The notes under the pieces are model-generated. The model had not been told where the DNA came from. It ran no database searches and saw nothing but the letters and a program-made list of their open reading frames with translations. Positions 28,308 to 48,880 of a stretch of 64,000 nt of DNA are shown here, piece after piece. Both the position numbers and the translations under genes were made by a program. This DNA comes from Frankia alni ACN14a. GTDB taxonomy: Bacteria > Actinomycetota > Actinomycetes > Frankiales > Frankiaceae. Position 1 is the first letter of the stretch, and every line of letters starts with the position of its first letter. The DNA lies in the NCBI RefSeq assembly GCF_000058485.1, contig NC_008278.1, positions 1,172,962-1,236,961 on the forward strand. The letters run 5' to 3'.

Positions 28308-29195
28308 TCTTGAAAAAATTCACCCGGGCGACCCCGCGTCGCCTGTCGTCAGGTCCGGTGTGCCGCGCCGGCACAGCCCCCGCCGGGACGCGGCGCGGAT
28401 CCACGGGTCGTCCGATGGTCGCGTGACCGGGCGAGGCCTCCCGTCCGGTGCCACCGGCCGCCCGGACGGATCCGGAATCGGGAGGGACGTCCGGTCCGTG
28501 GGTCCGGCGGACAACTTCGTGGACGGTGGTTCGCCTACCCCGGCGATCGCCTGGTCACACGGCCCGGCCGGAACGTCACCGGCGAAGGCTGCAACTCGGG
28601 GCCGCCTGGGCGGCCTCCGCGGCCCGGCATATCCCCGGCGGGGCCACCGGCGCCGGACTAATCGTGCGAAACGGAAGAAATAAACAAAACGGATTAACCG
28701 GTACAAGCGACCGATGGAGAGCCGACGTCGGACGGCCGGGGAACGCCCTGGGTCGACCGTCGGCTGGCAGGGACATGCCAGCGGGCGACAGGTGGCGCCG
28801 GGCTGCCCGCGGACTGTCCGGGAACGGACAGTCCGGGCTGGCCCGAAAGTCGTAATGGCGGCGGGTCGGCGGGAGGCGCGCGGGCGGCGCCGGGACGCCG
28901 GCCGGAGTCGAAGCCGGCCGTCGGGATCGCCGAGAACAGGGCTCGGGAGCCCGCGATGGTGGGCCGGAGGGGGCGTGGTGTGGCGCCGGCGAACCCGGTG
29001 ATCGGCCGGGTGCACGCCGCCGACCACATGCGCGGCGACGGTCCCGCGGCGAGAACGCGAAGGTGGTCACGGCGGCGCGGGTGCGCCCAGGCGGCCGGAG
29101 GGGGAGGTCCGGCGCACAGGCGCTACTGGACCTGCCCGCGGTGGCTCCCGCCTCCACCCGCGGGGGCTCCCGCCAGGCCGGGGACGTGCCCGGGC
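28308..29195. other. Gene-poor region between whiD and the DUF5319 gene
   Basis: No credible gene was found in either strand across about 890 bp; the open frames are Arg/Pro-rich shadows. It contains an AT-rich tract near 28655-28695, unusual here, and a perfect hairpin at 28810-28835 (11-bp stem, GGAA loop). An untranslated RNA or a long 5' region is possible. Confidence 0.5.
28810..28835. other. Perfect hairpin with GGAA tetraloop
   Basis: CGGACTGTCCG (28810-28820) and CGGACAGTCCG (28825-28835) form an 11-bp perfect stem around GGAA, a GNRA-type loop. The arms themselves are nearly palindromic (GGACNGTCC). No T-run follows. It may be a structured RNA element or a protein-binding site. Confidence 0.6.
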
Positions 29196-34511: not shown

Positions 34512-34899
34512 CTCCCTCCCGTGTACCATGGTCAGTCGGAGCTAAGACCCCATATCCTTCCGGGCTTATGGGCGACCCGCCAGCGAGCTATTGCTTTTTT
34601 GCCGGCCGTACGGTAGGACGTCCATCACGCATAGCCACACGATCACGGCCAGGCGGTGCGCGGGGCCGCAGACCGGGATCGCATGCCTCCGAGCGGCGCT
34701 GCTCCCGACCGACTGATCTGGCTGGGTGCGGGTTGCGACGAGATGGTTCAGACAATGCACGTCCACACGATGGCTGCCCACATCGTGCTGATCTGGGGGG
34801 CAGGAGATGCCGCCCGATGACCATGCACCGTAGCCCGGGGCCCGAGGGCCCTGCGTCTGCCGTTCCGTCCACCCGCGTGCCGAGGCGGGGGGCAGTTCG
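34512..34899 (+). other. Non-coding gap between two membrane-protein genes
   Basis: No gene was seen in these 388 bp. The first 120 bases are richer in A+T than the surroundings, with a weak inverted repeat (CCCATA 34549-34554, TATGGG 34567-34572) and a T6 run at about 34595. This may be the end of the upstream transcript and the promoter of the downstream gene. Confidence 0.4.
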
Positions 34900-45698: not shown

Positions 45699-47387
45699 GT
45701 GAGCGAGTTGCAGCGCAGCGATGCTGGTCACGATGTGAGACCGGGGGCCGTGGGCCCGGCGGGGGGCGCCCCGACGGCGCCGGTGGCCAGGCCCGGCACG
45801 CCCGCGGGCGCCGGTGCGCCGGGGCATCCCGGCTACGACACGGTGTTGGTGATCGATTTCGGCGCGCAGTACGCCCAACTGATCGCCCGACGGGTCCGGG
45901 AATGCCATGTGTACTCGGAGATCGTGCCGTGGGACATGCCCGTGGACGAGATCCTCGCCCGCAGACCGTCCGCACTGATCCTTTCCGGTGGGCCGAAGTC
46001 GGTGTACTCGCCGGGAGCGCCTCGGGTCGACCCTGCGTTGTTCGAGACCGGGCTGCCTATTCTCGGCATCTGCTACGGCCACCAGGTGATGGCCCAGGCG
46101 CTGGCCGGCTCGGTCGCCCGGACTGGAACGGCAGAGTACGGAGCGACTCGCCTGTCGGTGACCGGGCCGGGCGTCCTGTTCGACGGCCTGCCGGTCGCCC
46201 AGCAGGTGTGGATGTCGCACGGCGACTCCGTGACCGCGGCCCCGCCCGGCTTCCGGGTGACGGCGTCCACCCCGTCGACCCCCGTCGCCGCCTTCGAGGA
46301 TCCGACCCGCCGCCTCTACGGCGTCCAGTTCCATCCGGAGGTGGTGCACAGCGAGCGCGGGCTCGACGTGCTGCGGCACTTCCTGCTGGTGGGTGCGGGC
46401 TGCCGGCCGACCTGGACCATGGTGAACATCGTCGACGAGGCGGTGGCGGCGGTGCGCGCCCAGGTCGGCTCGGGCCGGCTGATCTGCGGGCTGTCCGGCG
46501 GGGTGGACTCCGCGGTCGCCGCGGCGCTCGTGCACCGTGCTGTCGGTGATGCCCTGACCTGCGTTTTCGTTGACCATGGCCTGCTGCGGGCGGGTGAGGC
46601 CGAGCAGGTCGAGCGGGACTTCGTCGCCTCCACCGGCGTCGATCTCGTCCACGTGAAGGCGGCCGACCGGTTCGCCGCGGCGCTGGCGGGCGTGACCGAC
46701 CCGGAGCACAAGCGGAAGATCATCGGACGGGAGTTCATCCGGGTCTTCGAGGAGTCGGCCCGCGAGCTGGAGGCCCGCGCCGAGGCCGAGGGTGCGACGA
46801 TCGAGCACCTCGTGCAGGGGACGCTGTACCCCGACGTGATCGAGTCCGGTTCCCCGACCGCGGCGAAGATCAAGTCGCACCACAACGTCGGCGGCCTGCC
46901 GGAGGACCTGCGGTTCGGCCTGGTCGAGCCGTTGCGCACCCTGTTCAAGGACGAGGTGCGCCGCCTCGGTGAGGAGCTCGGCCTGCCCGAGGAGATCGTC
47001 TGGCGCCAGCCGTTCCCCGGCCCTGGACTCGCCGTCCGCATCATCGGTGAGGTCACCCCCGAGCGGCTCGACGTGGTCCGGGCGGCCGACGAGGTGGTCC
47101 GCGACGAGATCCGCCGGGCCGGCCTGGACCGGGAGATCTGGCAGGTCTTCGCGGTGCTGCTCGCGGACGTGCGGTCGGTCGGCGTGCAGGGCGACGAGCG
47201 CACGTACGGGCACCCGGTGGTGCTGCGCGCGGTCACCAGCGAGGACGCGATGACCGCCGACTGGGCGCGGCTGCCCTACGGGCTGCTCGAACGGATCTCC
47301 AACCGGATCGTCAACGAGGTGGGACAGGTCAACCGGGTCGTCTACGACATCACCTCGAAGCCCCCGGGCACCATCGAGTGGGAGTAG
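45699..47387 (+). CDS. guaA: GMP synthase (glutamine-hydrolysing)
   Basis: GMP synthase aminates XMP to GMP using glutamine and ATP. The product is 562 residues. The class I glutaminase domain has [20 protein letters not shown], the nucleophile Cys125 in [12 protein letters not shown] and [13 protein letters not shown]. The ATP pyrophosphatase P-loop is [16 protein letters not shown]. The C-terminal dimer domain has [20 protein letters not shown] and the end [16 protein letters not shown] 45699 is used; the first 43 residues are an extra Pro/Ala/Gly-rich extension. It completes the guanine pathway started by guaB at 30 kb, though the genes are separated here. A terminator follows. Confidence 0.97.
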
Positions 47388-47404: not shown

Positions 47405-47447
47405 CGGCAGGCGCCCGGCGGTCCTGACCGCCGCCGGGCGCCTGCCG
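47405..47447 (+). terminator. Terminator after guaA
   Basis: A 15-bp stem (47405-47419 with 47433-47447) with a small inner GGTC/GACC pairing follows the guaA stop by 17 bases and is followed by GTTTG. It separates guaA from the ilvA leader promoter. Confidence 0.75.
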
Positions 47448-47449
47448 GT

Positions 47450-47478
47450 TTGACGTCCGGGCAAGTCCGGAGCACGCT
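47450..47478 (+). promoter_or_regulatory. Candidate promoter of the ilvA leader
   Basis: TTGACG (47450-47455) and CACGCT (47473-47478) are 17 bp apart. The predicted start of transcription, about 6-7 bases on, coincides with the GTG of a ten-codon ORF at 47485, which would make that ORF leaderless. Confidence 0.5.
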
Positions 47479-47484
47479 GAACCT

Positions 47485-47514
47485 GTGACCGTGCACGAGA
47501 TGGCCATTACTTAG
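47485..47514 (+). CDS. Candidate leader peptide of ilvA
   Basis: The short ORF GTG-ACC-GTG-CAC-GAG-ATG-GCC-ATT-ACT-TAG encodes MTVHEMAIT. It contains Thr (2), Val and Ile, the substrate and end products of the threonine deaminase pathway, and its stop is the first base of the following hairpin. The position before a hairpin and a U-tract terminator is that of a ribosome-mediated attenuator. Very short leaderless ORFs of this kind are common in Actinobacteria. Translation is not shown; the composition is suggestive, not decisive. Confidence 0.45.
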   Translation: MTVHEMAIT

Positions 47515-47577
47515 GCGCGCACCCGAGCTCCGGGTCCGCGCGCCAGCCCTTCCGCCCTCTCGGCGGGGGGCTTTTTT
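47514..47577 (+). promoter_or_regulatory. Candidate transcription attenuator of ilvA
   Basis: Two hairpins stand in tandem. The first pairs 47514-47520 with 47538-47544 and 47521-47525 with 47531-47535. The second pairs 47545-47556 with 47562-47572 (one bulged T) and runs directly into T6 (47572-47577), a classical intrinsic terminator, the only one with a T-run of this length noticed here. It ends about 50 bases before the ilvA start, so it must control read-through into ilvA or end an upstream transcript. Confidence 0.7.
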
Positions 47578-47626
47578 GTTGCCGCGGTCACGGCGAGGTG
47601 GCCGCACAGCCGCCGGGAGAGGCATC

Positions 47627-48880
47627 ATGACCGCACCAGCCGCAGACGACGACCAACCGACGCCCGGGAGCGGGGACCCTGGGCCCGGCGAGGCCGACCC
47701 GGATGTCGAGGCCGACCCGGGCGTCGAGGCCGACCCGGGCGTCGAGGCGGACCTGTGTGCCGAAGCGGATCAGCGTGTCGACGCGGATCTGCGTGTCGAA
47801 GCCATCGAGGCGGCGGCCGGGGTGCTCGACGGCGTGGCGCGGCGGACTCGGGTCGTGCCTGATCCCGGCCTGTCGGCCGCGCTCGGCACACCCGTGTGGT
47901 TCAAGTGCGAGCACGAGCAGCACACCGGCTCGTTCAAGCTGCGTGGCGCCTACCACCGGGTGGCGACCGCGGACCCGGCGGCGCGAGCCCGGGGAGTCGT
48001 CGCGGCCAGCGCCGGGAACCACGCCCAGGGGGTGGCGTTCGCGGCGGCCACCTTCGGCGTCCCGGCGACGATCTTCGTACCGGCGGGGGCGAACCCCGTC
48101 AAGGTCGCCCGGACCCGCCGGTGGGGCGCGCGGGTCGAGGAGGTGCCCGGAGGGGTGGAGGCCGCCCTCGCCGCGGCCGCCGACTTCGCCGCCCGCGGCG
48201 GGCGCCTGCTCGTGCATCCCTTCGACGATTTGGCCGTGGTGGCCGGGCAGGGCACGATCGGTCTCGAGCTGCTCGACCAGGTGCCGGACCTGGGGACCGT
48301 CCTGGTCGGTGTGGGCGGCGGCGGGCTCGTCAGCGGGGTCGCCGCGGCGCTGCGAGCGCGCCGGCCCGGCGTGCGCGTGATCGGGGTGCAGTCGGTGCTG
48401 GCCCCCGCCTTCGCCGCCTCGCTGCGAGCCGGTCGGCGGCTCACCGCGGTGGTGGGTGCCGATCTGCCGGGCGCCGCGGCGCGCGGCCGGGGCGTTCCCA
48501 CCATCCCGGGCAGCCGGCTGTCCGGGCGGCCGGTGCTGCCCCGACCGGCGGCGCGGCCCCGCACGATCGCCGACGGCATGGCGGTGAGCGAACCGGGTGC
48601 GCTGACCTTCGCGCTGGCCACCAGGCTGGTCGACGAGGTGGTGACCGTGGACGAGGCCGCCTTCTGGGAGGCGATGGTGCTGCTGCGCCGCGCCGGTCTC
48701 GCGGTGGAGCCGGCCGGAGCCGCGCCGGTCGCCGCGCTGCTGCGCCACGGCCGCCTCGTGCAGGGGCCGACGGTGGCGATCCTGTCGGGGGGCAACATCG
48801 ATCCCGGGGTGGCCAGCCGGGTCAAGTCGCTCGCGGCGGTCGCGACCGACGACGTCGGCGAACTGCGGACCACGGCCTGA
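47627..48880 (+). CDS. ilvA: Threonine ammonia-lyase (dehydratase), no ACT domain
   Basis: The enzyme makes 2-oxobutyrate from threonine, first step to isoleucine. The product is 417 residues. The PLP lysine is Lys104 in TGSFKLRGAYHR; the Gly-rich PLP phosphate loop is VGVGGGGLVSGVAAAL and VVAASAGNHAQGVAFAA is typical. The C-terminus ends just after the catalytic domain (AILSGGNIDPGVASRVKSLA), so the ACT-like regulatory domain of biosynthetic IlvA is missing. The first 60 residues are an acidic repeat (VEADPGVEADPGVEAD), and a Pro/Arg-rich insert lies near 290. GGGAGAGG precedes the ATG at 47627. A serine/threonine dehydratase of catabolic type is the alternative. Confidence 0.85.
   Translation: MTAPAADDDQPTPGSGDPGPGEADPDVEADPGVEADPGVEADLCAEADQRVDADLRVEAIEAAAGVLDGVARRTRVVPDPGLSAALGTPVWFKCEHEQHTGSFKLRGAYHRVATADPAARARGVVAASAGNHAQGVAFAAATFGVPATIFVPAGANPVKVARTRRWGARVEEVPGGVEAALAAAADFAARGGRLLVHPFDDLAVVAGQGTIGLELLDQVPDLGTVLVGVGGGGLVSGVAAALRARRPGVRVIGVQSVLAPAFAASLRAGRRLTAVVGADLPGAAARGRGVPTIPGSRLSGRPVLPRPAARPRTIADGMAVSEPGALTFALATRLVDEVVTVDEAAFWEAMVLLRRAGLAVEPAGAAPVAALLRHGRLVQGPTVAILSGGNIDPGVASRVKSLAAVATDDVGELRTTA

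Follow-up and report, generated by a model that had tools for sequence, protein, structure and literature searches.

A candidate leaderless attenuator upstream of ilvA in Frankia alni, with related leaders before branched-chain amino acid genes in Actinomycetia

Introduction

How does Frankia alni ACN14a control ilvA, the gene of its threonine deaminase? The question is raised by the short region in front of the gene (positions 47450 to 47626 of the window, that is, of the whole stretch of 64,000 nucleotides under analysis). A first-pass annotation of the sequence had proposed that a leaderless leader peptide and two hairpins form an attenuator there. Here, we explored this proposal by comparing the leader with those of other Frankiaceae and of the class Actinomycetia, and by computing the folding of its RNA with a ribosome at different positions. 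The comparative tests lend support to the proposal, and we consider it likely that the ilvA leader is a leaderless, isoleucine-responsive, ribosome-mediated transcription attenuator. Its layout is not quite classical, because we found no antiterminator that shares bases with the terminator.

Results and Discussion

Layout of the Leader

The upstream gene guaA ends at 47387. A strong GC-rich inverted repeat without a T run (47410–47443) lies between guaA and the leader promoter, and is possibly the 3′ end of guaA. All features of the leader are on the forward strand, and the promoter pair, the GTG-initiated ORF, the hairpin at its stop and the second hairpin with its T run were all located where the first-pass annotation had placed them. 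The −35 hexamer is TTGACG (47450–47455) and the −10 hexamer is CACGCT (47473–47478). The leader ORF (47485–47514) reads GTG ACC GTG CAC GAG ATG GCC ATT ACT TAG, and transcription is predicted to start at the first base of its GTG, 47485. It had been described as having ten codons; there are nine sense codons (MTVHEMAIT) and the stop.

Hairpin A (47514–47544) has its arms at 47514–47520 (GGCGCGC) and 47538–47544 (GCGCGCC), and its pairing starts at the G of TAG, the last base of the leader stop codon. It touches the terminator hairpin T (47545–47577), which has its stem at 47546–47571 and its T6 at 47572–47577 and was also recovered by a terminator scan (0.1 expected in shuffles). T had been called the only long T-run terminator noticed in the window; a second T6 exists at 34595–34600 and an A6 at 28313–28318, but no terminator-like hairpin was found beside either run.

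A further hairpin, H3 (GCGGTCAC / GTGGCCGC; 47584–47605), lies between the terminator and the predicted ribosome-binding site of ilvA, GGGAG (47615–47619). Two alternative hairpins with shared bases, GCGGYCAC/GTGGCCGC and GGTGGC/GCCACC, can be drawn at 47584–47619 just before this site; both seem to be kept across Frankiaceae, with a possible effect on translation. The start of the leader ORF pairs with H3 in the minimum-energy fold of the window, but a comparison by eye across genera showed that this pairing is not consistently conserved, and we rejected it.

The ilvA gene (47627–48880, with its ATG at 47627) encodes a threonine/serine deaminase of the PALP fold. In the Pfam search, only PF00291 (PALP, 1.1e−76) was matched, and no ACT domain was found at E ≤ 0.001; the best NCBIfam matches were threonine ammonia-lyases, which scored below their cut-offs. 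The lack of an ACT domain, which had been claimed for this enzyme, was thus borne out at this threshold, but its use as an argument for transcriptional feedback does not discriminate. The ACT-like Thr_dehydrat_C domain was absent in 19 of the 20 actinobacterial genomes tested, including ones with the leader before cimA, and its absence is therefore not special to the ilvA locus. The N-terminus of IlvA (47690–47810) is a repetitive acidic extension (DVEADPGVEADPGVEADLCAEAD...), and locus L034 has a similar repeat (RVDVERVDVERVDVE).

Conservation in Frankiaceae

Leaders of Frankiaceae were collected by DNA search and completed with fetched loci to a set of 33. Of 35 Frankiaceae genomes, 33 had the pattern ATGNNNATTNNNTRGGCGCG exactly once, in each case in front of ilvA, and the reversed-pattern control gave zero matches in the 35 genomes. 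The two genomes without the pattern are members of two small-genome genera. A looser pattern was also scanned against the genome contigs, and the matches listed were mostly chance.

The promoter is conserved in the same set. TTGAC was found 35–36 nt upstream of the GTG in all 33 leaders, and a −10-like hexamer 6–7 nt from the GTG, again in 33/33; the distance from the −10 to the leader start is 6–8 nt in nearly all leaders. Leaderless transcripts of Streptomyces lividans have a −35 consensus of TTGACn and a mean distance of 6.3 nt between the −10 and the transcription start (PMC8079986). The promoter-to-GTG spacing of the Frankiaceae leaders, as read from their alignment, fits this measured geometry.

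The reading frame is kept in all 33 leaders. In 29 leaders, 15 nt separate the GTG from the core ATG; the other four have a distance of 30, 60, 60 and 90 nt, and all four length variants are in frame, with no stop between the GTG and the core ATG. One of the expanded leader peptides is VPQQLVSRRPLGVQPLGRQPLGRRPLGVRLMGIT. In genus g6 (L025, L026, L035, L033), the ORF is enlarged in frame to 14–34 codons, due in part to a PLG-rich repeat, and the C-terminal motif is kept. The peptides end in M-x-I-[TNS]-stop, and their N-terminus is variable. At three loci, TGG replaces TAG and the frame closes inside hairpin A. A conserved short ORF in other Frankia genomes had been named as a check on the proposal; in Frankiaceae, the ORF is conserved together with its frame and its place at the predicted start of transcription.

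The Ile codon ATT (47506–47508) is invariant (33/33). It is rare otherwise: among Ile codons, ATT makes up 5 of 275 in the ilvA genes and 3 of 100 in the genes of the window. Isoleucine and threonine had both been put forward as the sensed amino acid. The Thr codon changes to Asn or Ser in several species whereas ATT stays constant, and we rejected threonine as the sensor; on codon conservation, the sensed amino acid would be isoleucine. The first-pass annotation had also judged the codon content to be weak for a sensor. For Frankia this holds, and the single conserved Ile codon counts against the attenuator reading.

Hairpin A is paired in all of 27 Frankiaceae leaders, and 97.7% of the cells of H3 are paired in the same number. 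The hairpins are nearly invariant within Frankiaceae, so that they say little on pairing from that family alone. At locus L029 (G021:C1:349282 onwards), the sequence from H3 to ilvA is replaced after CCACCAG, and the usual ilvA ribosome-binding site is consequently missing there.

Related Leaders before cimA and Other Genes

Five matches were found outside Frankiaceae, all before cimA, the gene of citramalate synthase (TIGR00977, above cut-off). Citramalate synthase opens another route to 2-oxobutyrate and isoleucine. In one family (f19), the leader is present in 21 of 21 cimA-bearing genomes. Among its peptides are MTFCLIIT, MSFWMIII and MTYSLIIS, and the stop is TAG, TGA or TAA, always at the same place. 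Two f19 genomes have a second copy on the minus strand, L240 (MFALVIIM; G203:C37:283433–283523) and L241 (MFTPRIII; G130:C6:196633–196725). L240 is followed by a protein of 107 aa that may be a small regulatory subunit; its match to the ACT domain is weak (E 0.0014, below cut-off).

A covariance model, R2, was built from 17 f19 cimA leaders; H3 is not part of it. At E ≤ 0.05, R2 had matches in 220 of 393 genomes of the class, among which some of the weakest will be chance because the scan used strict filters and rough E-values. Frankia ilvA leaders were recognised too, with E down to 5e−7. Elsewhere in the phylum, R2 matched no more than a few genomes from other classes, including G440, G415 and G429 (f57) and G579 (f90).

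We read 40 matched loci from 25 families. By BLASTP, cimA is downstream in 31 of them, and two more have cimA in another reading frame. Ile-Ile is present in nearly all cimA leaders, the ORF ending in Ile-Ile-x. Weak codon content is typical of the class, most cimA leaders having two or three Ile codons; one cimA leader, L277 (MASTCITT), has a single Ile as in Frankia. ATT is again enriched in the class-wide leaders (74 of 118 Ile codons, versus 31 of 828 in genes).

The codons of the leader match the gene that follows. The leader before leuS is MRRNLLLT, with Leu codons (NLLLT), and the leader before leuA is MKHLLLIESARH, also with Leu codons (LLLI). Before ilvB we found MHLTRDLVIP (LVI) and MTSRRDRVVP (VV), and for the latter ilvB was identified by reading the sequence. 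These four leaders (L261, L263, L264 and L265, from families f26 and f11) have the same hairpin layout, re-coded with Leu or Val.

Of the 35 Frankiaceae genomes, 34 have cimA, and this leader was absent from the 16 cimA stretches searched. The putative isoleucine element is, in this family, on ilvA in place of cimA.

Covariation and Spacing of the Hairpins

The first-pass annotation had named compensatory changes in both hairpins as support for the proposal, and these emerged once the cimA relatives were included. Within the f19 set, compensatory changes were found in hairpin T. In the class-wide alignment, double changes occurred in 15 of the 21 pairs, and 0 of 500 shuffles were as high. Because this alignment had been fitted to the model, and a dozen of its rows are partial or come from the reverse strand, the counts lean towards structure. 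Slid controls gave far lower covariation than observed. A covariation scan of all column pairs (65 rows) recovered both A and T, and detected no third covarying helix. The gap between A and T is 0 nt in 68 of 88 leaders and 1–2 nt in the remainder.

Folding and Ribosome Position

In the folding test, the RNA up to the 5′ arm of the terminator was folded together with a ribosome footprint, and the thr leader of Escherichia coli served as the positive control. The known antiterminator of thrL (10 bp) appeared with the ribosome at the Thr/Ile codons and was absent with the ribosome at the stop. In the ilvA leaders, the constrained folding found no conserved antiterminator sharing bases with T. 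Considering this result together with the covariation scan, we rejected a classical base-sharing antiterminator.

Hairpin A itself responded to the ribosome. When the ribosome was placed one codon short of the last Ile codon, the computed mean energy of A was about −19 to −23 kcal/mol; it weakened to −10 to −13 kcal/mol with the ribosome on that Ile codon and to −3 to −6 kcal/mol with the ribosome at the stop. Because its energy varies in this way, A behaves like a classical antiterminator, yet it has no base in common with T. A and T were able to form together in equilibrium folds, for which reason exclusion of T by contact is put forward here as a proposal. Plain equilibrium folding with the ribosome-covered bases blocked was uninformative, because the terminator appeared in every state of thrL too.

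Ribosome-mediated attenuators are recognised by an upstream ORF with codons for the end product, an intrinsic terminator between this ORF and the structural gene, and an RNA structure that depends on ribosome position. In the ilvA leader, a putative ORF has its frame, start and Ile codon conserved, an intrinsic terminator (hairpin and U-run) stands before ilvA, and hairpin A depends on ribosome position in the computed folds. The trp/thr-type attenuators have in addition an antiterminator that shares bases with the terminator, and this was not found in ilvA leaders.

Proposed Mechanism and Alternative Explanations

We propose the following mechanism. With transcription starting at the GTG, a ribosome would load straight on the 5′ end and read the nine codons. 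When isoleucine is plentiful, the ribosome would pass ATT, reach the stop and mask the 5′ arm of hairpin A; with A masked, the terminator T would fold and transcription would stop before ilvA. When isoleucyl-tRNA is scarce, the ribosome would halt at ATT and hairpin A, or most of it, would fold. Abutting on T, it would hinder the closure of T in the polymerase, and ilvA would be transcribed. Besides the start of the transcript, we infer that the ribosome stalls, in which direction expression responds, and that A keeps T from forming; by the end-product logic, hairpin A must favour read-through.

In the main alternative, A would have the opposite effect on T. Attenuation would still be real, but A would help T as part of a hairpin cluster: a ribosome halted at Ile would open the base of A or sterically block T, giving read-through, and its release would restore A, T and termination. 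Hairpin A does lose about half its energy when a ribosome holds the last Ile codon in its A site, nearby ribosomes repress terminators in E. coli (PMC4824070), and the contact between A and T is conserved. The stop, however, is inside A in several lineages, where a ribosome that finishes the ORF would open A more than a stalled one, and we regard this version as unlikely. An arrest peptide, in which the nascent chain M-x-I-T-stop halts the ribosome on a metabolite signal with no sensing of codon supply, would be in keeping with the conserved M-x-I-[TNS] C-terminus and variable N-terminus in Frankiaceae. We give it little credence, as the homologous leaders keep only Ile-Ile, Leu or Val stand in place of Ile before leuS, leuA and ilvB, and the synonymous choice of ATT is conserved, a constraint that sensing by the peptide would not require.

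Translation would play no role at all if the element were a metabolite riboswitch or a T-box RNA. The strong conservation of the RNA sequence and the two hairpins could be read in this manner, but no Rfam match came near any cut-off at the locus, none was found at E ≤ 0.1 in ten relatives, and the frame-preserving length variants, the three stop codons and the codons that track the downstream gene all point to translation; the probability of such an RNA is very small. That T is simply the terminator of guaA, which ends upstream at 47387, with a chance ORF in between, is negligible as an explanation, given the conserved promoter and translated frame between guaA and T and the occurrence of the element in other gene contexts at the cimA loci. 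Our preferred reading is still the isoleucine-responsive attenuator in which A works against T.

Extended to the class, this reading would give a leaderless attenuator on cimA, ilvA, ilvB, leuA and leuS throughout Actinomycetia, in which an antiterminator without bases of T excludes T by contact in the polymerase, and of which the isoleucine version precedes cimA in most lineages and ilvA in Frankiaceae. We advance this broader view tentatively, with rather more doubt than confidence.

Relation to Known Attenuators

Attenuators of the leaderless kind are not new: in Streptomyces, leaders for alaS, ilvB, thrS, trpS, leuS, leuA, trpE and metN have been reported, most of them leaderless (PMC8079986). 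The ilvA leader resembles the ilvB (ilvL) and leuS (leuL2) attenuators in its leaderless short ORF, branched-chain codons and intrinsic terminator (PMC8079986, PMC1262725), and differs from them in target gene and codons; abutting hairpins were compared for ilvL alone. We located the ilvB leader of Streptomyces (family f18) via the published ilvL peptide MRTRILVLGKRVG, and its ORF runs into a hairpin abutting the terminator. In the S. coelicolor ilvB leader, changes of the control codons left regulation unaltered (PMC1262725). The layout of that leader looks the same as that of the ilvA leader, and this counts against the codon-sensing reading.

The ilvBNC attenuator of Corynebacterium, or ilvB-II motif, likewise has a uORF with branched-chain codons, an upstream hairpin and a U-tract terminator, and its antiterminator overlaps the terminator slightly, as tested by mutation (PMC10272879, PMC11857589); no shared bases of A and T were found here, and the gene is ilvA. 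The ilvB1 attenuator of Mycobacterium tuberculosis shares the stalling uORF (with LVVI codons), the intrinsic terminator and the end-product logic, but it has a leader of 166 nt with a predicted mutually exclusive antiterminator and controls a different gene (PMC13236596). E. coli thrL also has leader codons for end products and a terminator before the structural gene; unlike the ilvA leader, it has the 10-bp antiterminator in the same folding test, and its ORF, which begins some 40 nt downstream of the transcript start, is not leaderless. Mycobacterial polycysteine uORFs are leaderless short ORFs described as amino-acid-responsive attenuators, according to what PMC13236596 cites from Canestrari 2020; they concern cysteine, and no obvious terminator was found for them (PMC1262725).

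Neither ilvA nor cimA is among the eight attenuators given for S. lividans TK24 (PMC8079986), and Seliverstov et al. 2005 reported no conserved structure beyond the Trp, Cys, Leu (including ilvB) and ileS cases. Our literature search, which did not cover Lopatovskaya et al. 2010 (Mol Biol), found no attenuator before ilvA or cimA. What appears to be new is the pair of targets, ilvA and cimA, for a putative leaderless attenuator without a base-sharing antiterminator.

Significance

The S. coelicolor ilvB leader has two abutting hairpins without a classical antiterminator, which suggests a reason for the puzzling results of its codon mutations (PMC1262725). If A does exclude T by contact, this attenuator design would be simpler than the textbook one. 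Because leader codons for Ile, Leu and Val match the downstream gene, one covariance model can be used to annotate regulation in many genomes. For Frankia, the ilvA leader is a candidate site at which the committed step in making isoleucine is controlled, and its cimA version is such a candidate for a large share of the actinobacteria, Streptomyces among them. With this leader, the cell can probably turn isoleucine synthesis on when isoleucine is short.
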